Program-made: the position numbers and the translations under genes
The notes under the pieces: generated by a model
The model's input: the letters and a program-made list of their open reading frames with translations, nothing else
Told to the model about the DNA's origin: nothing
The model's database searches: none
Shown here: one piece after another, positions 15,840-33,843 of the stretch
Position numbering within the stretch: the first letter of the stretch is position 1
Layout of the letters: the number at the start of each line of letters is the position of its first letter
Assembly (NCBI GenBank): GCA_021785395.1
Contig: JAJYFO010000009.1
Coordinates: forward strand, 1 to 33,843
DNA length: 33,843 nt
Reading direction: 5' to 3'
From: a bacterium
GTDB lineage: Bacteria; Cyanobacteriota; Vampirovibrionia; Obscuribacterales; JAKAZS01

Positions 15840-17990
15840 TTAAGGAATATTTAGCGGTGCGTCAAGTACTATCGGCAATTCTGTGCCAGAAACTATTTTT
15901 ACTTCTGACCCTTTGCGCACACCAGCTCCTACCAGTCCCACGCCAGACCCTATAGCTGTGCCAAAAACAGCCCCCATGCCAGTAGCCCTACCGACATTGC
16001 CGTTAGAAGTTCCGCCGACAATAGCGCCAAGCCCAGTGCCTAAAGCCGCTCCACCCAAGGCTCCACCACCAACAGCTAGAGCACTTTTGCCAACTCTACC
16101 CATATTGCTGCCACCAGAAAGTGACATTTTATTTGTATCTACGCTTGCTTGAATACTTAATTTGCGACCGTCAGGCAATTGAACTTGGGTGAAACTAATA
16201 GCTATTTGGCCGTTGGCACCAAATTTGAATCTTTTGGCCGATACCACTTTGGTAACCTGACCTGAGATAACCGTATTTGGTGGCAATACCATTTTGCCAT
16301 CTTGCATTAACCCATTAACCAACGTTGTCTCTACCGGTTCGCCAACTTGCGTTGAAGCAGAATCGAGTGAATTTTTTAGAGTGGCCGCCATAAGTGCTCC
16401 AGAATTAATTGTTGTAGCGTATCCTTGGAGAATCTGACCTGAGTTATTAGGATTAAACTGATAATTATTATTGGCTTGGTTGTAGGCCATTTGTGGATTA
16501 CTCATATTTTGTCCGTAACTGTTTTGTCCATAATTATTAGAATTATAATTGCTACCTGTATTTATATTTTGCTGGCTGACTTGGCCTTGAAAATTGCCTT
16601 GTGGGTAGTTGTTTTGAGGATAATTGCCGTTGTTTGGATTGTTATTTGGCGGTGGATAATTTTGTGGATATACGCCGTTATTTTGACTATTTACATTAGA
16701 CTGGGCAAAATTATTTTGGTTGGAGTAATTGTTTTGTGGATAATTACCGGTATTTGGATTGTTATTTGGCGGTGGATAATTCTGTGGGTAGACGCCGTTA
16801 TTTTGACTATTTACATTAGACTGGGCAAAATTATTTTGGTTGGAGTAATTGTTTTGTGGATAATTACCGGTGTTTGAATTATTATTTGGCGATGGATAGT
16901 TTTGATGATAGTTTCCGGTATTTGGACTATTATTTGGCGGTGGGTAATTTTGCGGGTAGACGCCGTTATTTTGACTATTTTGTGGTGGCGGATAATTTTG
17001 CGGGTATATTCCTTGATTTTGGGTATTATTTGTCTGGCTAAAATTATTTGAGCTAAAATTATTTGAACTAGAAGGATAATTTTTTTGGTAATTATCTTGG
17101 TTGCCGTAATTGGGAGGGGCAAAATTATTATTATTAGGGCTTACAAAATTATTGCTGGGCTTAAGACCAGTAGCGGTATTATGGGGAATATTGTCTATAT
17201 TGCCGCTAGAATTAAAATTAGGCTGGTTTTGGCTGGCTATATTCTGATTAGAATTATTGGGGATATAGTTGTTATTGCCATTGTAATTAGGACTGGGTGG
17301 TTCGTCGCTTTGGCTAAGTGTTGGCTTTAGTCTTTTTCTAGGTTTCATTCCGCTCACAATTTCTTGCTTGGTTAAATAGCGATCGAATTTATAAAATATT
17401 GCCGCCGCCTGGTCGCGGTCGATAAGTTTTAAGGCGTTGACGGTATTATTGTCGGGGTAATTGACTAAAATATTGTCTTGATATGCCTGTGCTATAGCGC
17501 TTCTGGCCCAAGCAGGAATAAGCGTCTTGTCGCTAAATCCATCCAAAATATCGTCTTGTTGCGACTGGGTCATATTTTGGGGTGGAAGGTAGCGGGTAAG
17601 TATTAACAGCACTTCGCCTTTAGTCATAAATTGTTCTGGGCGAAAGCCGTCGGCGTAGCCTGATATAAGGTTACTCTGACGGGCTATTTCGATATATTTA
17701 TAGTATGGGTCATAAAGACTTACGTCTTTATAAGCTGGTTTTTGCGAAAATGGTTCATTCTCAAGGTGCAGTAAATAAACTAACCACTTGGCAAATTCTG
17801 CTCTGGTCAAGGGTTTGCCTGGGTTGAATTTGCCATCCTTTTCGGATTGTAAAATGTTTTCGTCGCTTAAGTAGTTTATATATTTTTGCGCCCAATTATT
17901 ATCTAAGTCAACGTATCTTGCGGCAATCGCCGTTTCGGTTACGAATACCTGGGCTATTATAAGCGCTGATAGGATATAAATTTTTTTCAT
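15840..17990 (-). CDS. Secreted SLH-domain protein with Asn/Pro/Gln repeats and a VirB10/TrbI-like C-terminal domain
   Basis: A signal peptide (residues 1-23, ending Ala-Ile-Ala-Ala) is followed by three SLH motifs at about 24-210 (YVDLDNNWAQKYINYL, FNPGKPLTRAEFAKWLVYLL, then two further units). SLH domains tether proteins to pyruvylated polymers or peptidoglycan. Residues 225-525 are low complexity, built of Asn, Pro, Gln, Tyr, with 40-residue repeats. From about 530 comes a compact domain with LPPNTVISGQVTKVV, QVQLPDGRKLSIQA, a Gly-rich double stretch and a closing SGTELPIVLDAPL, like VirB10/TrbI beta barrels and related cyanobacterial proteins. The whole could span periplasm to outer membrane. 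It is last in a three-gene minus-strand set. Confidence 0.82.
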   Translation of the reverse strand: MKKIYILSALIIAQVFVTETAIAARYVDLDNNWAQKYINYLSDENILQSEKDGKFNPGKPLTRAEFAKWLVYLLHLENEPFSQKPAYKDVSLYDPYYKYIEIARQSNLISGYADGFRPEQFMTKGEVLLILTRYLPPQNMTQSQQDDILDGFSDKTLIPAWARSAIAQAYQDNILVNYPDNNTVNALKLIDRDQAAAIFYKFDRYLTKQEIVSGMKPRKRLKPTLSQSDEPPSPNYNGNNNYIPNNSNQNIASQNQPNFNSSGNIDNIPHNTATGLKPSNNFVSPNNNNFAPPNYGNQDNYQKNYPSSSNNFSSNNFSQTNNTQNQGIYPQNYPPPQNSQNNGVYPQNYPPPNNSPNTGNYHQNYPSPNNNSNTGNYPQNNYSNQNNFAQSNVNSQNNGVYPQNYPPPNNNPNTGNYPQNNYSNQNNFAQSNVNSQNNGVYPQNYPPPNNNPNNGNYPQNNYPQGNFQGQVSQQNINTGSNYNSNNYGQNSYGQNMSNPQMAYNQANNNYQFNPNNSGQILQGYATTINSGALMAATLKNSLDSASTQVGEPVETTLVNGLMQDGKMVLPPNTVISGQVTKVVSAKRFKFGANGQIAISFTQVQLPDGRKLSIQASVDTNKMSLSGGSNMGRVGKSALAVGGGALGGAALGTGLGAIVGGTSNGNVGRATGMGAVFGTAIGSGVGLVGAGVRKGSEVKIVSGTELPIVLDAPLNIP
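16621..16870. repeat. 120-bp tandem repeats inside the SLH protein gene
   Basis: Units 16621-16740 and 16741-16860 differ at only a few bases; 16672-16751 and 16792-16871 are identical for 80 bases. Each unit encodes 40 residues of the type YPQNYPPPNNNPNTGNYPQN followed by NYSNQNNFAQSNVNSQ. More degenerate copies continue to about 17050. The number of units could vary by slippage or recombination, changing the length of the linker between SLH and VirB10-like parts. Confidence 0.9.
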
Positions 17991-18039
17991 AAAATTATTC
18001 GAAAATATTTGGCTTAAATATTTAGTTCTTAGTACTTAA

Positions 18040-18068
18040 ATTTTAACCCAAAATAAAGATTTAAACAA
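18040..18068 (-). promoter_or_regulatory. Candidate promoter of the SLH protein gene
   Basis: On the minus strand TTGTTT (18063-18068) and TAAAAT (18040-18045) are 17 bases apart, starting just after the stop codon of the Roadblock gene and 50 bases before the SLH start. The -35 match is weak. It would allow transcription of the SLH gene apart from the two upstream genes. Confidence 0.3.
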
Positions 18069-18070
18069 TT

Positions 18071-18448
18071 TTATGGTAATAGACTATCTATTTGACCGGC
18101 TTTTTCTTCCACGAGCTTGATTAGACCTTCTAGATTAATCCTTTGTCCCTTGGAAGTTATTACCATTAGCAGATAGTCTTTAATCTGGTAGAAATGCAGG
18201 ATTACCTGGTCGGTTAAAAGGGTCATTTGGTGCAATTGGCCACGGTTCATTTTTTGGATAGAGACGTCGTTATTGGCAAATAACGTTCCGCTAAGCGCCC
18301 CAATAGTGCCAATGTCTATATTGGGTGGCAAAGACGAGCCAAAGACTTCCCCGCTTTTGGCGATAAGCATCGAACCCATAATACCGTGTTGGCCATTAAA
18401 TGAACCTAATAGGGTTTGTAATTGTGTTTGACTATCAGATACCGACAT
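18071..18448 (-). CDS. Roadblock/LC7 domain protein (MglB-like)
   Basis: This 125-residue protein is essentially one Roadblock/LC7 domain: LQTLLGSFNGQHGIMGSMLI, then AKSGEVFGSSLPP, IGALSGTLFANN and a final beta strand with DYLLMVITSKGQRINL. In bacteria such proteins are partners or GTPase-activating proteins for Ras-like MglA switches, but no MglA gene is in the window. I prefer the ATG at 18448 to an in-frame TTG four codons earlier, since GGA lies six bases before it. It begins about 20 bases after the stop of the secreted OB-like protein, suggesting one transcript with it and perhaps with the SLH protein downstream. Confidence 0.85.
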   Translation of the reverse strand: MSVSDSQTQLQTLLGSFNGQHGIMGSMLIAKSGEVFGSSLPPNIDIGTIGALSGTLFANNDVSIQKMNRGQLHQMTLLTDQVILHFYQIKDYLLMVITSKGQRINLEGLIKLVEEKAGQIDSLLP

Positions 18449-18469
18449 TTGTAATTCCAATTCAATAAT

Positions 18470-19192
18470 TTATTTTTTCTTTTCGTTTATTTCTGGAGGT
18501 AATGAATCTGTTTTTTTATGGTTAGGTTCTTTATTTTTCTTTTTTTCGATTAAATCATCTGAATCGACTACGTCGTCTTCGTCGTCTTTGTCTGGTTTAG
18601 GTGGTTCGAGGCGTTTTAGGTCAATGACGTCGACCCAAGGGTCTCCAAGCGCCATGGAAAATTCGGTGCCCACTATTTCAATTTTGTCGCCATCTTTTAA
18701 TGTTCCGAGCATTTTATTAAAAGTGGTATTATCTTTAGACATCGGTACGGCCAGTTTAAGCTCAGATAAGGGAGTGTGGCTATCGTCACGCAAGACCAGT
18801 ATGGACAAGTAGTCTTTAGAAGACCGCATAGCCGGCTTGTAGTCAAGTGCCAAGCTGGAAAATGCGTAAAACCTTGTTTTGAAGCGTACGTGCTTGTCGA
18901 GGTATTTCTTAGGGTCGTTGACTAGGTCTAAACAGTTAATATCTACTGTGTCTTTGGGAATAATAACTGGCTTCTCTTTACTGGCCTCGGGTTTTTTGTC
19001 GCTGGTATCTGGCTTGACCTTGGTTTGAGCCTTTTTAGCAACAGCATAGGCTGGCAATTTTGACTTGACAGTATTGTCAAGGTTGGCACTCACTCCATTA
19101 GTTGCGCCAAATAGAAGCAAAAGCCCAAAAGCGGCTTTAGATTTTAATGGCACATTGGTTTTATTCTTCTGGCTTTTTGGTGCGATAAGCAT
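18470..19192 (-). CDS. Exported protein with a possible OB-fold domain and charged tail
   Basis: No named family is recognised. The N terminus has Lys residues and a hydrophobic stretch (KAAFGLLLLFGATNGVSANL, residues 19-38) like a signal peptide. After a Lys/Pro-rich linker, residues 85-195 read as a small beta barrel: DLVNDPKKYLDKHVRFKTRF, YLSILVLRDD, LKDGDKIEIVGTEF and PWVDVIDLKRLE, the order seen in OB-fold/tRNA_anti-like exported domains. The end is strongly charged (KDDEDDVVDSDD then Lys-rich). The ATG lacks a clear ribosome site. It heads the minus-strand set with the Roadblock and SLH genes, divergent from mutS across a 213-base gap with no other gene. Confidence 0.65.
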   Translation of the reverse strand: MLIAPKSQKNKTNVPLKSKAAFGLLLLFGATNGVSANLDNTVKSKLPAYAVAKKAQTKVKPDTSDKKPEASKEKPVIIPKDTVDINCLDLVNDPKKYLDKHVRFKTRFYAFSSLALDYKPAMRSSKDYLSILVLRDDSHTPLSELKLAVPMSKDNTTFNKMLGTLKDGDKIEIVGTEFSMALGDPWVDVIDLKRLEPPKPDKDDEDDVVDSDDLIEKKKNKEPNHKKTDSLPPEINEKKK

Positions 19193-19405: not shown

Positions 19406-21982
19406 TTGACAATAAGCGAAGATAAGACCAACAATGCCTCAACAGCTCTTATAAAACAGTATTTCGACTTAAAAGCTAAACATAAAGAACATTTCTTGTT
19501 TTTTCGGGTTGGTGATTTTTATGAAATGTTCGATAAAGACGCTGAGCTGGCTGCCAGAGAACTAGAGATTACGCTGACAAGTAAGTCAGATAGTGGATTT
19601 GAAACTGGTAAAATACCTATGGCTGGAGTTCCAGCCAAGTCTTACGAGACCTATGTCGCTAAACTTTTGACCAAAGGCTATAGCGTCGCCATTTGTGAGC
19701 AGGTAGGCCAGGTTGGTGCCAACAAAGGCCCGGTTGAACGTGATGTGGTTAGGATTCTAACCCCGGGTACAATTATCGAGTCGCATTTGCTACCGGCTAA
19801 AGAAAACAATTTTTTAGCCTGCTTGGTTCAAGATAAAAACCAATGGGGGCTAGCTTTTGTCGATATTTCGTGCGGACAGTTTTTGGCGACGCAATTATAC
19901 GACAAAGACGTGAACCAAGAAATAGCTAAAATAAACGCCAAGGAAATTCTGGTTAAAACCGTCGTGGTCCAAGATAAAGATTTGAAAATCGATAAAATTG
20001 TCAAAGAAATGCCGCCAATTTGCCATAATAATTCTAAGTATAAAATAACAGCCCTGCAAGAATACGCCTTTAATGAGGATAGAGCTAGGCGCAAGATCCT
20101 CAATTATTTTAATGTCGCTACTGTCGATGGCTTCGGTCTAAATTCTAAGCCGCTGGCGATTATAGCCTGCGGCGTAATTTTAGATTATTTGGAAAAAACC
20201 TGCCCTAGTCAATTGCCTTTTTTCCCAGGTATTGTGAGCTACGAGGCTAGCGAAAGCCTGGAAATAGACGGGCAAACGCAAAGCACGCTAGAGATACTAG
20301 AAACTTTACGTGACAAAAAATTTGAAGGGTCTTTGTTGTGGGCTATCGATAAAACTAAAACGGCTATGGGTAGTAGACTTCTACGCAAGTGGCTGGTAAA
20401 GCCGCTAAAAGATATAAATAAAATCCTAGCCAGGCAATCTGTCACTGAAGAACTACTGCATAACGACAGTTTAAGACATGACTTTGAGTTGGCGTTTAAC
20501 CAGTTAAATGATCTAGAAAGGCTTAGCGTCAAACTGGCTCAAGGTAATGTAAATCCTCGAGACCTTTTGGCGATAGCTGAATCTATAAATAAACTTGAAT
20601 TTTTAAACAACCTTTACCACAGTATTAAAACACCTTATCTAAAAGAATTAACCAATATCGGTGACTTTGCCTTTGAATTGCATAATTTGATTAATCGAGC
20701 TATTGCCAATGACGCACCAAGAGAATTGACCGACGGCAATATTTTTCTAGATAATTACGATGAAAATCTTGACGAGTTACGAAGTTTATTAACCGGTGGC
20801 GAAAACTGGCTAAAACAGCTACAAGAAAATGAAATTCAAAAAACCGGTATTAAAAATTTAAAAGTTTCGTTTAATAGAATTTTTGGCTATTTTATTGAAG
20901 TTACTAATTCGTACAAAAAAAATGTCCCGCCCAATTACATCCGCAAACAGACTTTAGCCAACGGCGAGCGTTATATAACCGACGAATTAAAACAGTTTGA
21001 AACCAAAATTTTATCGGCTAAAGACAAGGCCTGCGATTTAGAGTACAAGTTATTCAGCGATTTAAGAAACCAGTTGAAGTTTTTTGGCCAAGATTTACTC
21101 GAATTGTCTCAAAAAATTGCTACAATCGATGTTTTATTGTCGTTTGCGCTTACGGCTAAAAGCAATAATTATGTAAAACCACAAATCGATGACTCGTTAA
21201 TTTTAGATATAAAAGACGGGCGTCACCCAGTTCTTGAGGCTTTATTGCCTAAAAATACGTATCAGGCCAATGATTTGTACCTAGTTGGTGATAATAGTAC
21301 CAATGAGTTGATTATTCTAACCGGACCCAATATGTCTGGCAAGTCTAGCTATTTGCGGCAGACAGCGCATATAGTAATAATGGCCCAGCTTGGTTCTTTT
21401 GTTAGCGCCAAATCTGCTCATATAGGTATTGTTGACCGTATTTTTACAAGAATTGGGGCAAGCGATGACGTGACATCAGGCCAGTCTACTTTTTTGGTGG
21501 AAATGACCGAAACTACGCAATGCTGCATTCTGTCAACCAAAAGGTCTTTAATCCTGCTTGACGAGGTCGGTCGTGGTACTAGCACATACGATGGTGTCGC
21601 CATTGCCTATAGTGTGGCTGAGTATTTGGCGCTAGAAGTTCGAGCCAGGACAATTTTTGCCACGCATTATCATGAATTAAACTCACTTAGTCAAAAATAT
21701 CCGCAAATAGAGAATTTTCAGGTTCTAGTAAGCGAGCTTAATGGCTCGGTCGAATTTTTGCACAAAGTAGCTCCTGGTAAAGCCGATAAAAGCTATGGTA
21801 TTCATGTAGCTTCTATGGCCGGTTTACCCGTTTCAATTATTAATCGAGCCAAATTCCTTATGTCTAAAATGGAAAGTAAAAGTGCTGCTGGCTCAATTCT
21901 AGAACAAAAAGGTAAAAACAAGAAAGACAGCGAGGAAAATTCTGGTGTCATTCAATTGACATTATTCGATAGCCTAAATTAG
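19406..21982 (+). CDS. mutS: DNA mismatch repair protein MutS
   Basis: MutS binds mispaired bases and recruits MutL. The mismatch-contact motif is intact: Phe38-Tyr-Glu40 in VGDFYEMF. The connector, lever and clamp regions follow. The ABC-type ATPase has the Walker A GPNMSGKSS at 640-648, Walker B with LLDEVGRGTSTYDG (Asp719, Glu720) and the His loop FATHYHEL. At 858 residues it is a full-length MutS1. The start is TTG, supported by GGAG at 19395-19398 seven bases upstream. No mutL is near. The gap before it holds the short palindrome TTAACAAAAGTTAA at 19354. Confidence 0.97.
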   Translation: MTISEDKTNNASTALIKQYFDLKAKHKEHFLFFRVGDFYEMFDKDAELAARELEITLTSKSDSGFETGKIPMAGVPAKSYETYVAKLLTKGYSVAICEQVGQVGANKGPVERDVVRILTPGTIIESHLLPAKENNFLACLVQDKNQWGLAFVDISCGQFLATQLYDKDVNQEIAKINAKEILVKTVVVQDKDLKIDKIVKEMPPICHNNSKYKITALQEYAFNEDRARRKILNYFNVATVDGFGLNSKPLAIIACGVILDYLEKTCPSQLPFFPGIVSYEASESLEIDGQTQSTLEILETLRDKKFEGSLLWAIDKTKTAMGSRLLRKWLVKPLKDINKILARQSVTEELLHNDSLRHDFELAFNQLNDLERLSVKLAQGNVNPRDLLAIAESINKLEFLNNLYHSIKTPYLKELTNIGDFAFELHNLINRAIANDAPRELTDGNIFLDNYDENLDELRSLLTGGENWLKQLQENEIQKTGIKNLKVSFNRIFGYFIEVTNSYKKNVPPNYIRKQTLANGERYITDELKQFETKILSAKDKACDLEYKLFSDLRNQLKFFGQDLLELSQKIATIDVLLSFALTAKSNNYVKPQIDDSLILDIKDGRHPVLEALLPKNTYQANDLYLVGDNSTNELIILTGPNMSGKSSYLRQTAHIVIMAQLGSFVSAKSAHIGIVDRIFTRIGASDDVTSGQSTFLVEMTETTQCCILSTKRSLILLDEVGRGTSTYDGVAIAYSVAEYLALEVRARTIFATHYHELNSLSQKYPQIENFQVLVSELNGSVEFLHKVAPGKADKSYGIHVASMAGLPVSIINRAKFLMSKMESKSAAGSILEQKGKNKKDSEENSGVIQLTLFDSLN

Positions 21983-23591: not shown

Positions 23592-23707
23592 TTCAAAAAT
23601 ATTTGTTATATTTAATTAAACCAGACTTATACTTGATTGGCTGTTTAAGCATTGTTTTATTTTTGATACCACTGCTTGGTCGAATTGACTATTTTAACTA
23701 CCGATAG
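23588..23707 (+). pseudogene. 39-codon membrane ORF, probable stump of a gene cut by the ars operon
   Basis: The ATG overlaps the previous stop codon as ATGA, the usual form of translational coupling. The product starts MIQKYLLYLIKPDLYLIGCL and has one hydrophobic stretch (LYLIGCLSIVLFLIPLL) before stopping at 23707. The last 51 bases run antisense through the 3' end of acr3. This looks like the N terminus of a larger membrane protein whose remainder has been replaced by the ars genes. It could also be a true small protein. Confidence 0.4.
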
Positions 23708-24718
23708 CATAACCGGCACTTCGATTAAAACGCCGACTACGGTAGCTAAGGCCGCTCCCGAATTAAAGCCAAACAAACTTATGGCTGTAGCCACAGCCAA
23801 TTCAAAAAAATTGCTAGCACCAATTAGCGCCGAAGGACAAGCCACATTATGCGCTACTTTAAAATGTTTATTGAGTAAATAAGCTAGCGTCGAATTAAAA
23901 TAGACCTGAACCAGAATAGGACAAGCTAGCATGGCGATTATCAGTGGCTGTTTTATGATGGCTTGCCCTTGAAAAGCAAACAAAAGTATCAATGTCGAAA
24001 GTAATGATACCAAAGATACCTGTCCTAATTTTTTGAGTATATGCTGAAACGCTGTATAGCCTTCTTTTAATAGAGATTTGCGCCAGATTTGTGCCATAAA
24101 AACGGGCATGGCTATGTACAGGCCTACCGAAATCAAAAGCGTATCCCAGGGCACACTTATAGAAGAAAGACCAAGCAATAGACCTACTACAGGTGCGAAT
24201 GCAAATACCATAATTAAGTCGTTTAGCGCGACTTGGGTTAGGGTAAAATAAGGGTCACCGTCGGTTAGCTGACTCCACACAAATACCATGGCCGTGCAAG
24301 GAGCTGCGGCTAAAAGGATTAATCCAGCTATGTAGCTGTCTATTTGGTCAATGGGAAGATAAGGGGCAAAGATGTGGCGGATAAAGATATACGCCAAAAA
24401 GGCCATAGAAAACGGTTTGAAGCCCCAATTTATAAGCAGTGTAACCAAAATTCCCTTCCATTGACTTTTAACCTGGTGTAAGGCGGCAAAGTCGATTTTC
24501 ATTAACATAGGTACGATCATAAGCCATATTAAAATGCCAACCGGTATATTGACCTTGGCGATTTCTAGCGACGCAATTAGTTTAAATGGACCGGGAAATA
24601 ACTGTCCTAGCAATATACCGATACCGATGCACATAAATACCCACAGTGTCAGATAGCGTTCGAAAAAGCCAATTTTGGCTTCACTATCTGACACTTGGTT
24701 AGGAGTTGCTGTAGTCAT
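23657..24718 (-). CDS. acr3: Arsenite efflux permease, ACR3 family
   Basis: ACR3 exports arsenite using the proton gradient. The 353-residue protein shows ten hydrophobic helices and the family signature AAAPCTAMVFVWSQLTDGD, with the essential Cys at 141, plus the Gly-Ala-Ser-Asn-Phe-Phe-Glu-Leu-Ala run and the late Glu in VLIEVPVMLSVV. Bacterial ACR3 proteins have this length. It is the last gene of the arsR-arsI-arsC-acr3 set, 57 bases after arsC. Its 3' end overlaps a short plus-strand ORF. It pairs with ArsC, which supplies arsenite from arsenate. Confidence 0.95.
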   Translation of the reverse strand: MTTATPNQVSDSEAKIGFFERYLTLWVFMCIGIGILLGQLFPGPFKLIASLEIAKVNIPVGILIWLMIVPMLMKIDFAALHQVKSQWKGILVTLLINWGFKPFSMAFLAYIFIRHIFAPYLPIDQIDSYIAGLILLAAAPCTAMVFVWSQLTDGDPYFTLTQVALNDLIMVFAFAPVVGLLLGLSSISVPWDTLLISVGLYIAMPVFMAQIWRKSLLKEGYTAFQHILKKLGQVSLVSLLSTLILLFAFQGQAIIKQPLIIAMLACPILVQVYFNSTLAYLLNKHFKVAHNVACPSALIGASNFFELAVATAISLFGFNSGAALATVVGVLIEVPVMLSVVKIVNSTKQWYQK

Positions 24719-24775
24719 CGTTTTCGTTTCTCGTCTATTTACGGCTTGGTTTTTCTTATTTTCTATTTTTTCGTT

Positions 24776-25183
24776 TTATATTTCTTGCGCCAGGGCGCCT
24801 AGTTCGTGCAATAAGTCAGCCACTTTGGTCTTTATCTCGTCACGGATAGATGCGACTTCTTTAGGCGACTTATCCTTGGGGTCAGCCAAAGACCAGTTTT
24901 TCTGTCTTAGCCCGGGTTGGTTTGGACAGACTTGCCCACAGCCCATTGTTACAAGCATTTGAGCCTGGCTAGCTAATTCGTCGGTAAGAAGTTGCGGTTT
25001 GGCATTGGATAGATCTATACCGACTTCTTTCATGGCGTCTAAGACTACTGCGTGTATTGTGTCAGCCGGAGCCGTTCCGGCTGACACAGCTGTAACCTTG
25101 CTCAAGTCAGCCATCTGGTTAAAAAAGGCCGCCGCCATTTGAGAGCGGCCAGCATTATGGACGCAGGCAAATATTACTTTCAT
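24776..25183 (-). CDS. arsC: Arsenate reductase, low-molecular-weight phosphatase type
   Basis: It reduces arsenate to arsenite. The phosphatase-like loop is Cys7-Val-His-Asn-Ala-Gly-Arg13-Ser. The redox relay pair is Cys82 and Cys86 in TMGCGQVCP, and the Trp-Ser-Leu-Ala-Asp-Pro segment closes the site. This cysteine set is typical of thioredoxin-linked ArsC. At 135 residues the length is standard. Its ATG overlaps the arsI stop by four bases (25180-25183), so translation is coupled. Confidence 0.95.
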   Translation of the reverse strand: MKVIFACVHNAGRSQMAAAFFNQMADLSKVTAVSAGTAPADTIHAVVLDAMKEVGIDLSNAKPQLLTDELASQAQMLVTMGCGQVCPNQPGLRQKNWSLADPKDKSPKEVASIRDEIKTKVADLLHELGALAQEI

Positions 25184-25665
25184 TTATCTTTAACCTTTAA
25201 CGTCGCAACTATATCTTGCGTAGCTTGTGGTTTGCAGCACGCTGATTTTTTTGCCATAGGTATTTGATCGTGTGACAGGTTTTTATCTTGTCCGTAAACG
25301 GTCGATGTATTAGTGGTGTAAAACGTCTCCCAAGCAATTCCTTGGCAGTCGATGACCCAAGCTTTGTCAGACTCAGCATAGCAGCATGTGGTATTACCTT
25401 CGTCCAGTATTTCCATATTGGCAGTTTTAAGCTGTTGTGTTAATTCTTTAAGCTCGTCTTGACTATCGGCTTGTATACCCAAATGGTCTAAACCTGGCTC
25501 TAAACCAGGTCTTACAGAAATCGCAAAATTGACGAAAGGGTCATTGAGCATCCATTTGGCGTAATCATCTTTTATAACTGTTGGCTTGGCGTCAAACAAC
25601 TTGGTGTAGAATTTAGCCGACTGTTCGATACAATCTACTGAAACGTGAACGTGGAACCTTTTCAT
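25180..25665 (-). CDS. arsI: ArsI/CadI-type vicinal oxygen chelate protein, probable C-As lyase
   Basis: ArsI breaks the carbon-arsenic bond of trivalent methylated or aromatic organoarsenicals using Fe(II) and O2. The family marks are present: Cys94-Cys95 in NTTCCYAESDKAWV, His61 in LDHLGIQ, and Glu113 in AWETF as metal-site residues, with His5 where other members have Gln or His. A Cys-Cys pair also lies in the C-terminal extension (KKSACCKPQ). At 161 residues it matches ArsI and CadI. AGAGG precedes the ATG. The 142-base gap to arsR shows a 21-base imperfect direct repeat (CAAGTCT..AATATT) but no gene I accept. Confidence 0.88.
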   Translation of the reverse strand: MKRFHVHVSVDCIEQSAKFYTKLFDAKPTVIKDDYAKWMLNDPFVNFAISVRPGLEPGLDHLGIQADSQDELKELTQQLKTANMEILDEGNTTCCYAESDKAWVIDCQGIAWETFYTTNTSTVYGQDKNLSHDQIPMAKKSACCKPQATQDIVATLKVKDK

Positions 25666-25807
25666 TAATATTTACCTCTATTATCGTTATTTAGTTAAGG
25701 TCAAGTCTAAAAAATATTCTGGACAATTTTTTGTTAATATTTCATCTGGCTTGTCACTTGATTTAGGGCAAGTCTCATAAATATTTTGGTAGTGGGAAAT
25801 TTTTTTT

Positions 25808-26107
25808 TTAACATTTACCCCCATTGTCGCTGCAGCAGTTCTCGACCAAAAAATTAATCAACGCGTTCATATTGTCGTAATTGGCTGCGTATATAATTGA
25901 ACGACTCTTACGTCTAGCTGTTATCAAGCCAGCGTTGGTCAACTCTTTTAGATGAAAAGACATGGTTGCTTTAGGCAGGCCAAAATAATCGCTTAATTCG
26001 CCAGCTGCCATACCCGTTTTGCCTTTTCTAACGAGTAGCCTAAATATATCCAGGCGCGATTCTTGCGCTAGGGCTGTTAATGATTTGACGGCGTTTGATT
26101 TTTCCAT
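25808..26107 (-). CDS. arsR: ArsR-family arsenic-responsive repressor
   Basis: This 99-residue winged-helix protein should repress the operon and release DNA on binding arsenite. The recognition helix is in LPKATMSFHLKELTNAGLI, and the wing is ARRKSRSIIYAANY. The classic Cys-Val-Cys in the DNA-binding helix is missing. Instead the C terminus ends Cys91-Cys92-x6-Cys99, close to the site known from Acidithiobacillus ferrooxidans ArsR (Cys95, Cys96, Cys102). This is the first gene of the minus-strand operon and has a palindrome just upstream. Confidence 0.93.
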   Translation of the reverse strand: MEKSNAVKSLTALAQESRLDIFRLLVRKGKTGMAAGELSDYFGLPKATMSFHLKELTNAGLITARRKSRSIIYAANYDNMNALINFLVENCCSDNGGKC

Positions 26108-30079: not shown

Positions 30080-33000
30080 ATGATCTTTAGAATTAATAAA
30101 ATAATTATATTTTTAATCTTTGTGTTGACGGTTAACCAAACTTATGCTAGCGAAAATATAGAAGTAGCCACATCTAGCCCAAGCAATATAAGTCATTACA
30201 ACGATAACGTTAACATGAATAATATTTTGCACGAGTCGCTTGCGTCAAACATGGATCTAAGTTCTTGGACTCCCAGTTTTACTGCGTCTTCTATCGCTGC
30301 ATTTCACAATGTCGATATAAAACTTTCCAGTCAAGACGTGGCTATTAGCCATAATACCTTGTTGACGCCAGCTGAATATATTTTAGTTAGGGAAATTTTG
30401 ACTAATTCGGCAAATCTATTGCGCTTAAATAATTTTGGCCAAGCTATTGGTGGTAGTTTTAATTTGAGCCTATTGCCCAATACTACTGATGGTCTTATTG
30501 TTCCAGCTAACGTTGTAGCTTTTGGCAACAATATCAGTTTGAATTTGAGTGAAAATCTGGTGAATTATGGTGATATTAATTTAAACTCTGGAAATTATGG
30601 CTCTAGTATTGCTTGCAATAATTTTTTCAACGCTAAAAATGCTTCTATCAACGAGTTCTCGTCTAATAACGAGACTAGTTTTGACATTAAAGCCATGGCT
30701 GATTTTATCAACGCCGGGAATATCACAAGTAATAGTAACGTTAATATTCAAACTCAAACTGGCGTTATAGAAAATTTAAACACCGGTATAATTACGGCTG
30801 GTTTAAATTTGGGGCTTAATACAGGTGGTTTGTACTTCGATAACTACGGCAGTATAACTTCAATAGATAAAAGCATTTTTATTGATGGAGGTATTAATGG
30901 CAATTTGGATATAAATGCATTGTCTGGGAATTTTGAAGCCCATCAAGATATAACGTTTAACTCTAGTTATAATTCATCTGACAAATCGGTTTTAAGCGTT
31001 AATGGAGGCGACTTTAACGGTCAGAATGTACTCAATAGCAATTTGAATTTTTTGGCTGGCAATGGTAACTTGCATATAGATATCAACGAAGTCGTGGCTA
31101 CCGTAAATCTGTCCGGCCGAAATCTTGGTCTGGAAGTTAATACCGCTTCTTTAAACTTGGGTAAGTTTAATATTACGGGTGACCCGTTAATTTTAAACAC
31201 CAATGGAAATATAACCTTGCCCAGTGGCGGAATTACAACCGGAGGCTATGATTTAGTTATTCTTGCCAGTGGCAGTATTTTTAGTAATTCTTCTAACCCT
31301 GGTGTTCTGGATACATCGGTGACAGGTTATGGTGTTACAAGCAGTTCTGGTACCAGTATTGTACTTAATAGTTCACAAGTATTGAATCAATATAATGGTG
31401 GAGCGGGTAATTTGACCATTATAGCTGGGGCAAGTATCAGCAATAATGCTAATATTGCGACAGTCAATGGCGCAAGCTTAACTGGTGGCCAGGTGTCTTT
31501 AATTGGCATGACGTCTATAAATACATTTGGCGATGGTATTAATAATACCAGCACGCCACCATCTGGAGTAAGCTATTTTATTCCTAATCTTAACGCGGGT
31601 AATCTGGTTGTAGCGGCTTACGGAGGTAATAGTAGTAATTCTGGAATTATAACTATTACGGCTAATAATGCAATAACTACCGGCGGGACTTCTAACGGAC
31701 AAAATTTTAATATAACCGGTATAAAACAAGGCACGGGTATAAATGGTGACGTAATTATTTTAGCCGGTGCGCAGAATCTAACTAGCTCTACAAATTCTAT
31801 CGACTTAACTAGCCTTAGTACCCAGCCCTATAGCAATCAAGGCAGCTCGAGTAATGGCGGTTTAATAGACTTATTCACCCAGATCCCGGTTATAAATTCG
31901 AGTAATAATACGTTTACCAATTCAAGTACTAATGCTAATTTAATAAATAACCAAGACACTTCTACCCTTTTTATTAATACCCTGTTAAATCCAGCTATAG
32001 TAGCTTTGTCGGCTACTGGTGTGGTTAATGTAGCTGGTTCCATAACTTCTTCGGGCGACGGCATAAATATATCCAGTGCCAGTGATTTTATTTTTACCAA
32101 TTATATCGATATATCCGGTGGTAATTTAGGGCTTACCGTCTATAGCGGAGGCAATATCAATATTCCTGTTCTAACTATGTACCCAGCTATAAATGTTTTA
32201 AGCCCTAATAATCACGGAACTATTTGGTTAGAAGCTAGCGGACCTGGTACTAGTAGCAGCGGTAATATATATGTAAGCTCGCAAATTAAAGGGTATAACG
32301 TCAATCTTTTAACCGACAATAACGGCAGTATTTATTTTTATAACCCTGGCACCAATTTAAGTGAACTGGCTGTTCTAGCCGCCAATACTTTGTCTATAAG
32401 CGTTAACGGGTATGGAAATGTTAATGATGTTAATAATGCTTTTATCCAGGCTGTAAATTTGCCAATTATAGGACAACTAGGTCTTATCGGGTCAGGCAAC
32501 GGTCTTTACATTAATGCTCCTAATATATCTTTTTCGGGTTATTCCGTTAATGTAACCGACAACTATAACGGCAACGTCAATATATATCCATCTAAGATTA
32601 ATTTTCTTTTTCTGACTTTATCCAGTAGTGGCAGTAATTTAGATCTAATGGGATTAATTAATCCTAATCCTTCAGTTAGTGGTTATGTTGACCTGACTTT
32701 TACTGGCAATGGGTCAATTATAAATTCGCTTGGATCCTCTATTATGCCAATAAGCGCTGGCGATTTAACTATTACAGCTGGTACGGGAAATTTTGGGACG
32801 AGTACAAACCCTCTTTTGATAAACACCAGTGACTTAAATTTATTCGGCCAAGGCAATTTTTATTTTTCCGATAACGCTAAGATTCTCTATATTGGTCAGG
32901 ATGTTAATTCTAGTGCTAATAGCTTGGCTTTAACCGATACTGCTTACTTGGCGAGTATAAATTTAAGTTATTCCGCAAATTTTAGTTTAAATTACTTGCT

Positions 33001-33843
33001 TTTAACTGCTAGCCAATCTGGCAATGTAAATATAGGTGGTGCTATTAATGGTGCCTCTGGCGACGCTTTGGCTGTTTCGTTAAACACTAATGGAAGCGGC
33101 CAGATTATTTTTGAAAATAATTATGTAGGACCACGCATCGAAACTGTTTCTCTAGCACTGCAATCATCTAATGGTGGTATTGGTGTAGCTAATTCGCAGT
33201 CTGTATTGACTGACGCTAGTAATCTATACGTCAATACTAGTAACAATTGCAATATTACAGACACTAATTCTGGCAACGTGAATCTAAACCAAGTCGCAGC
33301 TAATAATTTAACTTTAACGGCTAGTGGTGCCTTAACCGTCAATGGCAGTGTGAATGTCGCAAATAGCTTAAATTTAACGGCTCAGTCTATTTCAACTAAT
33401 TCTAAAACGAGTGTTTTGGCTTCACAGGTATATTTTTCATCAACTCAAGCCCAATCTTTTTCTGGTAGTGTTTTAGCTGATAACAACTTAGAAATAGTCG
33501 CTGGCAATGTAACTGTCAATTCGACAGGGTCACTTAACGCTGCTTCGATATTGGTTAGCGAAAATTCGTTGGCAACGTTTACCAATAACGGATCAATTGT
33601 GACAGGCAGTCAGGTCAATGACAAATTTTCCATAACTTCTAACTACGCCTTAACGCTAGCCGGAAATGGTATTTTTACTTCACCGCAAGAATTTTATATC
33701 TATGTTTATGGGAATTTAAATCTTGGTAATTTATTAACGTTAAGCCAGCCGGTAAGCACACAAGATTTGAGCCTTAATGCCGAAGAGCCAAGTGTTGGCT
33801 CGACGGCTTATAACATTATTACAAACGCTAGTACAATTAGCGC
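30080..33843 (+). CDS. Giant exported beta-strand-repeat protein, adhesin-like, 3' end beyond the window
   Basis: The frame opens at an ATG preceded by AAAAAGG and stays open for 1254 codons to the window edge. Residues 1-23 form a signal peptide (IIIFLIFVLTV core, cleavage near Tyr-Ala-Ser). Residues 90-145 contain LTPAEYILVREILTNSANLL then GGSFNLSLLPNT, a short helix and strand region before the repeats. The remainder is Asn, Ser, Gly, Thr and Leu rich, with short beta strands such as NLTLTASGALTVNGSVNVAN, as in filamentous haemagglutinin and other beta-helix surface proteins. It probably sits on the outer surface. The secretion partner and any C-terminal anchor lie off the window. Confidence 0.85.
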   Translation, partial: MIFRINKIIIFLIFVLTVNQTYASENIEVATSSPSNISHYNDNVNMNNILHESLASNMDLSSWTPSFTASSIAAFHNVDIKLSSQDVAISHNTLLTPAEYILVREILTNSANLLRLNNFGQAIGGSFNLSLLPNTTDGLIVPANVVAFGNNISLNLSENLVNYGDINLNSGNYGSSIACNNFFNAKNASINEFSSNNETSFDIKAMADFINAGNITSNSNVNIQTQTGVIENLNTGIITAGLNLGLNTGGLYFDNYGSITSIDKSIFIDGGINGNLDINALSGNFEAHQDITFNSSYNSSDKSVLSVNGGDFNGQNVLNSNLNFLAGNGNLHIDINEVVATVNLSGRNLGLEVNTASLNLGKFNITGDPLILNTNGNITLPSGGITTGGYDLVILASGSIFSNSSNPGVLDTSVTGYGVTSSSGTSIVLNSSQVLNQYNGGAGNLTIIAGASISNNANIATVNGASLTGGQVSLIGMTSINTFGDGINNTSTPPSGVSYFIPNLNAGNLVVAAYGGNSSNSGIITITANNAITTGGTSNGQNFNITGIKQGTGINGDVIILAGAQNLTSSTNSIDLTSLSTQPYSNQGSSSNGGLIDLFTQIPVINSSNNTFTNSSTNANLINNQDTSTLFINTLLNPAIVALSATGVVNVAGSITSSGDGINISSASDFIFTNYIDISGGNLGLTVYSGGNINIPVLTMYPAINVLSPNNHGTIWLEASGPGTSSSGNIYVSSQIKGYNVNLLTDNNGSIYFYNPGTNLSELAVLAANTLSISVNGYGNVNDVNNAFIQAVNLPIIGQLGLIGSGNGLYINAPNISFSGYSVNVTDNYNGNVNIYPSKINFLFLTLSSSGSNLDLMGLINPNPSVSGYVDLTFTGNGSIINSLGSSIMPISAGDLTITAGTGNFGTSTNPLLINTSDLNLFGQGNFYFSDNAKILYIGQDVNSSANSLALTDTAYLASINLSYSANFSLNYLLLTASQSGNVNIGGAINGASGDALAVSLNTNGSGQIIFENNYVGPRIETVSLALQSSNGGIGVANSQSVLTDASNLYVNTSNNCNITDTNSGNVNLNQVAANNLTLTASGALTVNGSVNVANSLNLTAQSISTNSKTSVLASQVYFSSTQAQSFSGSVLADNNLEIVAGNVTVNSTGSLNAASILVSENSLATFTNNGSIVTGSQVNDKFSITSNYALTLAGNGIFTSPQEFYIYVYGNLNLGNLLTLSQPVSTQDLSLNAEEPSVGSTAYNIITNASTIS

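Follow-up and report, generated by a model that had tools for sequence, protein, structure and literature searches.

What could a small cytoplasmic Roadblock/LC7 protein have in common with two exported proteins encoded on either side of it, one with an OB-like fold and the other combining S-layer homology (SLH) repeats, an Asn/Pro/Gln-rich linker and a VirB10/TrbI-like domain? The question is posed by three genes (the trio) on the minus strand of a 33,843-nucleotide contig (C294; the window, meaning the whole stretch of DNA analysed) from a genome of the order Obscuribacterales (G000; 2.83 Mb, 88.5% complete). The photosystem reaction-centre family is absent from the class, Vampirovibrionia, and present in most of the genomes tested from the rest of the phylum, so the class is treated here as non-photosynthetic Cyanobacteriota. 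Its members have genes for a diderm envelope, including those of lipid A synthesis (PMC4040986). The initial annotation had placed the three genes as in Table 1, and the position and strand of all three are confirmed. One boundary changes: the Roadblock gene had been started at a TTG (18460), and its relatives make the ATG at 18448 the probable start.

Table 1. Features of the trio and its divergent neighbour in the window
Feature	Coordinates	Strand	Basis or remark
OB-fold protein, exported, 240 aa	18470..19192	-	Model and structure matches
OB domain within the OB-fold protein	~18593-18982	-	
Charged low-complexity tail, C-terminal end of the OB-fold protein			
Roadblock/LC7 protein, cytoplasmic	18071..18448	-	Without signal or TM segment
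SLH-linker-TrbI-like protein, exported, 716 aa	15840..17990	-	
SLH repeats, three (~residues 24-205)	17376..17921	-	Pfam SLH, 7e-25
Asn/Pro/Gln-rich linker	16425..17342	-	97 N, 40 P, 37 Q in 306 aa; partly tandem repeat
VirB10/TrbI-like C-terminal domain	15843..16418	-	
Gly-zipper hairpin in the TrbI-like domain, before the last strands	15915..16118	-	~35% Gly, many GxxxG
mutS	19406..21982	+	Divergent neighbour outside the module; marker of conserved synteny in the order

Elsewhere in the window, an arsenic-resistance-like cluster can be recognized by sequence at 23657-26107 (ACR3-like transporter, ArsC-like reductase, glyoxalase-like protein and ArsR-like regulator), and an ORF of >1250 aa with a signal-like start and no Pfam match runs off the contig end at 30080-33843.

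The identity of the trio proteins was approached through sequence families and structural models. The SLH assignment in the window protein is certain at the sequence level, the Pfam match extending over three stretches. The linker that follows carries a 120-bp tandem repeat (16605-16931, 2.7 copies, 89% match), and its length is therefore likely to vary from strain to strain. The Roadblock assignment is borderline for the single protein, which at 22.1 bits falls just below the Pfam cut-off of 23, and certain for the family as judged by profiles: Robl_LC7 is matched by all 18 aligned relatives (best, 7e-12), and a search of solved structures with the family profile reaches Roadblock proteins at 8e-10. 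Searches of the single window proteins with Pfam and NCBIfam missed both the OB and the TrbI-like protein. The OB protein has no significant sequence match; its model is confident (pLDDT 85), and its best matches among solved structures are proteins bearing an OB fold, which argues for a predicted OB-type beta barrel. For the third protein, the window copy is without a Pfam match to VirB10/TrbI, 6 of 16 relatives match the Pfam TrbI family (best, 6e-10), and the TrbI-like profile gave chance matches only when run by sequence against solved structures. With the model of the C-terminal domain, the first 24 solved structures returned by Foldseek are all VirB10-type domains of type IV secretion systems, at probability 1.00, the matches comprising VirB10, TrwE, ComB10, CagY, Dot/Icm and F-type C-terminal domains. 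The model of this domain is poor, at low confidence, in domain residues 101-168, the Gly-zipper hairpin, whose place presumably corresponds to that of the VirB10 membrane antenna. That this poorly modelled hairpin inserts into a membrane is something we infer. Export signals of the OB and TrbI-like proteins were judged by inspection. The description of an OB-like exported protein, of a cytoplasmic Roadblock protein between two exported ones, and of a VirB10/TrbI-like C-terminal domain, the point on which the initial annotation had staked itself, thus holds.

Within the order the three genes keep company. The ~125-aa Roadblock gene occurs in 51 of 53 genomes, and the two others are 65% and 76% complete. 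At all 22 loci opened, the OB-Roadblock pair is divergent to mutS, and the TrbI-like gene is next in line at 18, with one further locus cut by a contig end. The automatic choice of ORFs passed over the Roadblock genes of two loci (L043 and L049), both of which were found by other searches; that of L049 is intact, its apparent stop preceding the ATG. The third gene is SLH-bearing at 16 of the 22 loci, TrbI-like without SLH at three and absent from three (L052, L055 and L057), where OB and Roadblock are retained. The proposed fusion of SLH, linker and VirB10-like domain is real in the window copy, but the set does not always include the SLH repeats.

Beyond the order, a profile search found the OB gene in one copy in each of 25 genomes of the class and in none of 10 tested from the rest of the phylum. 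It is without the other two genes in families f3, f5, f6, f8 and f10. At 18 of 18 loci in families f4 and f7, a middle gene of ~100-135 aa comes next and then a TrbI-like gene of ~225-290 aa, and the middle gene is limited to these families (18 of 289 class genomes). The middle protein was tied to Roadblock first by where its gene lies and then by profiles of the families. Outside the order, a search with a single Roadblock sequence had no match, nor does the Pfam Roadblock model match the f4/f7 middle proteins. In reciprocal profile searches of 1515 non-redundant ORFs, the top non-self matches of a profile of 17 middle proteins are the trio Roadblocks of the order, 26 in a row (2e-7 to 3e-3), and the first 12 non-member matches of a Roadblock-only profile are middle proteins. 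Alignment of the two by hhalign is near full-length at 58%, against 0.4% for an unrelated control. The likeness, reciprocal but weak per sequence, indicates that the middle protein is very probably a diverged Roadblock homologue. None of the f4/f7 TrbI-like copies has SLH; the repeats are a lineage addition to the TrbI-like protein. The gene order that the initial annotation wished to see kept in relatives is kept, the trio genes being adjacent at most of the order loci opened and in f4 and f7.

Since the three genes occur together across three lineages, the evidence points to a joint role in the cell envelope, one undescribed so far. An envelope role for the TrbI-like family is supported by its nearness to TonB-ExbB-ExbD genes, which lie ~5 kb from the trio in f7 and directly beside a TrbI-like paralogue in f5 and f10. 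In the latter, small genomes of 2 Mb, the TrbI-like gene directly adjoins genes for TonB, ExbB and two ExbD (L114-L117). The f5/f10 set may be an envelope system linked to TonB and containing a VirB10-like protein.

Roadblock proteins bring small GTPases to mind, and an MglA-type GTPase, for which the initial annotation had suggested a search, is indeed present in the carrier genome, on another contig than the trio (C277, L166:7376-7954). It matches M. xanthus MglA at ~1e-75 and the other solved MglA at 1e-72. Arf-family (PF00025) matches occur in 50 of the 53 order genomes, with ORFs of ~190-225 aa in nearly all, and MglA was found at 12 of 12 order loci opened, flanked by hsp33-like and recG genes. 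The gene is highly conserved (G000, L167-L177) and single in most of the order; there is a second copy at L170 and L175 and a more divergent copy at L168 and L123. PF08477 was discarded as an MglA probe: nearly all its matches lie in long ORFs, probably GTPases of translation or ribosome assembly. In G289, a deeper-branching genome of the phylum, an MglA that is 76% identical has a Roadblock gene as its direct neighbour.

The trio might accordingly be the effector arm of an MglA polarity switch, with the Roadblock protein as the MglB-like partner and the exported proteins polarised. The true MglA in the genome and its spread through the order are as this reading expects, and no Roadblock gene lies beside mglA in the order, so that a partner would have to be sought elsewhere. 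We nevertheless consider the reading unlikely. The same query found no MglA in 29 other genomes of the class, including 16 with the OB-middle-TrbI trio, and among solved structures no MglB chain matches the trio Roadblock profile up to E 10. Two further conserved Roadblock families in the order also compete for the role of MglA partner. The first is a membrane-type protein that has some four TM segments and carries either a single Roadblock domain or two (L063, L065, L066, L068, L070, L073, L075, L076; L059, L061). The second, of ~1000-1800 aa, has a Cys-bearing N-terminus (MNCxxFRxLIQ...), continues with a long stretch of low complexity and ends in a Roadblock domain; it is found in one conserved neighbourhood in the order (L058, L062, L064, L067, L069, L071, L072, L074). 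The partner of MglA could be any of the three Roadblock families. Since MglA is unlinked to the trio and was not found in f4 and f7, an MglA/MglB switch alone does not describe the trio.

The layout of the third protein suggests another reading, an outer-membrane tether of the OmpM type, its SLH repeats in the cell wall, its C-terminal part in the outer membrane and the Roadblock gene incidental. N-terminal SLH, a long linker and an outer-membrane-type C-terminal domain do resemble OmpM (PMC10628300). However, the C-terminal domain is TrbI-like and not a porin barrel, with no porin family in Pfam found for the window copy or its relatives; SLH is missing at three order loci and from every f4/f7 copy; class genomes have homologues of the porins SomA and SomB, which are thought to do the tethering (PMC4040986); and a conserved Roadblock gene is left unexplained. 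We regard a tether of this kind as decidedly improbable.

It may also be asked whether the genes are neighbours by inheritance, unshuffled and without a joint function. In the order, the neighbourhood is conserved as a whole, mutS and uppS included, as such a view would predict. However, the same trio order recurs amid changed surroundings, with a coaBC-like neighbour in f7 and a thrS-like one in f4. Mere neighbourhood is thus an unlikely reason for the linkage, and we would give inheritance without function very little chance. Lastly, the view that the trio belongs to a type IV secretion or conjugation system or is what remains of one, suggested by the VirB10/TrbI fold, is contradicted already and almost certainly wrong: VirB4 (PF03135) is absent from G000 and from 33 of 35 genomes tested, which is why the trio is not read as such a system, the two exceptions have it on another contig or ~40 kb from the trio, no secretion genes lie next to the trio at the loci opened, and TrbI-like genes occur in several copies throughout the class, with seven in G000. 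One order member (G026, contig C1: L189, L191) has two VirB4-like genes, possibly of a conjugative element.

The reading we favour, while giving it no better than even chances, is an envelope module in which a VirB10-like protein associated with the outer membrane is combined with a Roadblock adaptor in the cytoplasm; such a module would not need MglA. The reading is prompted by finding the same trio order in three lineages, each with a genomic setting of its own. The TrbI-like domain would reside at the outer membrane, the Gly-zipper hairpin taking the place of the VirB10 membrane antenna, and the OB protein would be its periplasmic partner. TrbI-like copies with SLH repeats would be anchored to the cell wall by them. 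The Roadblock protein, probably a dimer, would act as an adaptor in the cytoplasm, positioning or regulating the assembly through an inner-membrane partner encoded elsewhere; the gene set itself has no membrane-spanning link between Roadblock and the exported proteins. In the order, the membrane-type Roadblock paralogue is a candidate for that link; in the window's own family it lies two genes from a TrbI-like gene, and it was not seen in f4 or f7. MglA may have been recruited to the Roadblock adaptor in the order, the module itself being independent of it. A bolder version, a trans-envelope machine of a new type that predates the link to MglA in the order and in which Roadblock runs or places an outer-membrane ring of VirB10-like protein that belongs to no secretion system, seems to us improbable. 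The surface machine with a cytoplasmic switch of the initial annotation is partly supported: the neighbours, the fold and the presence of MglA agree with it, while the GTPase is unlinked and not found in f4 and f7, SLH is optional, and no membrane protein of the set joins Roadblock to the exported proteins, so that it stays a hypothesis.

The same annotation knew of no system with this composition, and our search found none. No paper found combines VirB10, TrbI and S-layer homology, or Vampirovibrionia and Roadblock, and Roadblock occurs with S-layer homology only in an unrelated review, in a literature search that took in few subscription papers. The set fails a defining test of each known kind considered. 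Its composition, as distinct from its function, could be categorically new, a claim to which we give about even chances. Should the trio work jointly, a VirB10-type outer-membrane domain would be in use outside secretion, and a Roadblock protein would serve exported proteins with no GTPase strictly required. The trio, accompanied by MglA in one order and not in two families, offers a natural comparison, informative on how such switches are wired onto older modules.

How, then, does the trio compare with known systems? With the VirB10/TrbI proteins of type IV secretion (TrwE, ComB10, CagY, TraB) it shares the C-terminal fold, a low-complexity linker ahead of the domain and an insert before the last strands. 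The insert of the trio, however, is a Gly-zipper hairpin, SLH stands behind the N-terminal hydrophobic segment, and the family is multi-copy in genomes mostly without VirB4, with no secretion genes nearby. As in MglA/MglB systems, a Roadblock-family protein and a true MglA occur in one genome, but the trio Roadblock is not next to mglA and is unmatched by MglB chains, and the f4/f7 trios are without MglA. The OmpM/SlpA-type SLH tethers of Terrabacteria likewise have N-terminal SLH, a long linker and a C-terminal part that is probably outer-membrane-associated; in the trio that part is TrbI-like instead of a porin barrel, SLH is optional, and OB and Roadblock genes are linked. Finally, the actinobacterial conservons (CvnA-D) are also small conserved operons with a Roadblock gene, but where they have a histidine kinase, a CvnC-type gene and a GTPase, the trio neighbourhoods inspected have two exported proteins instead.
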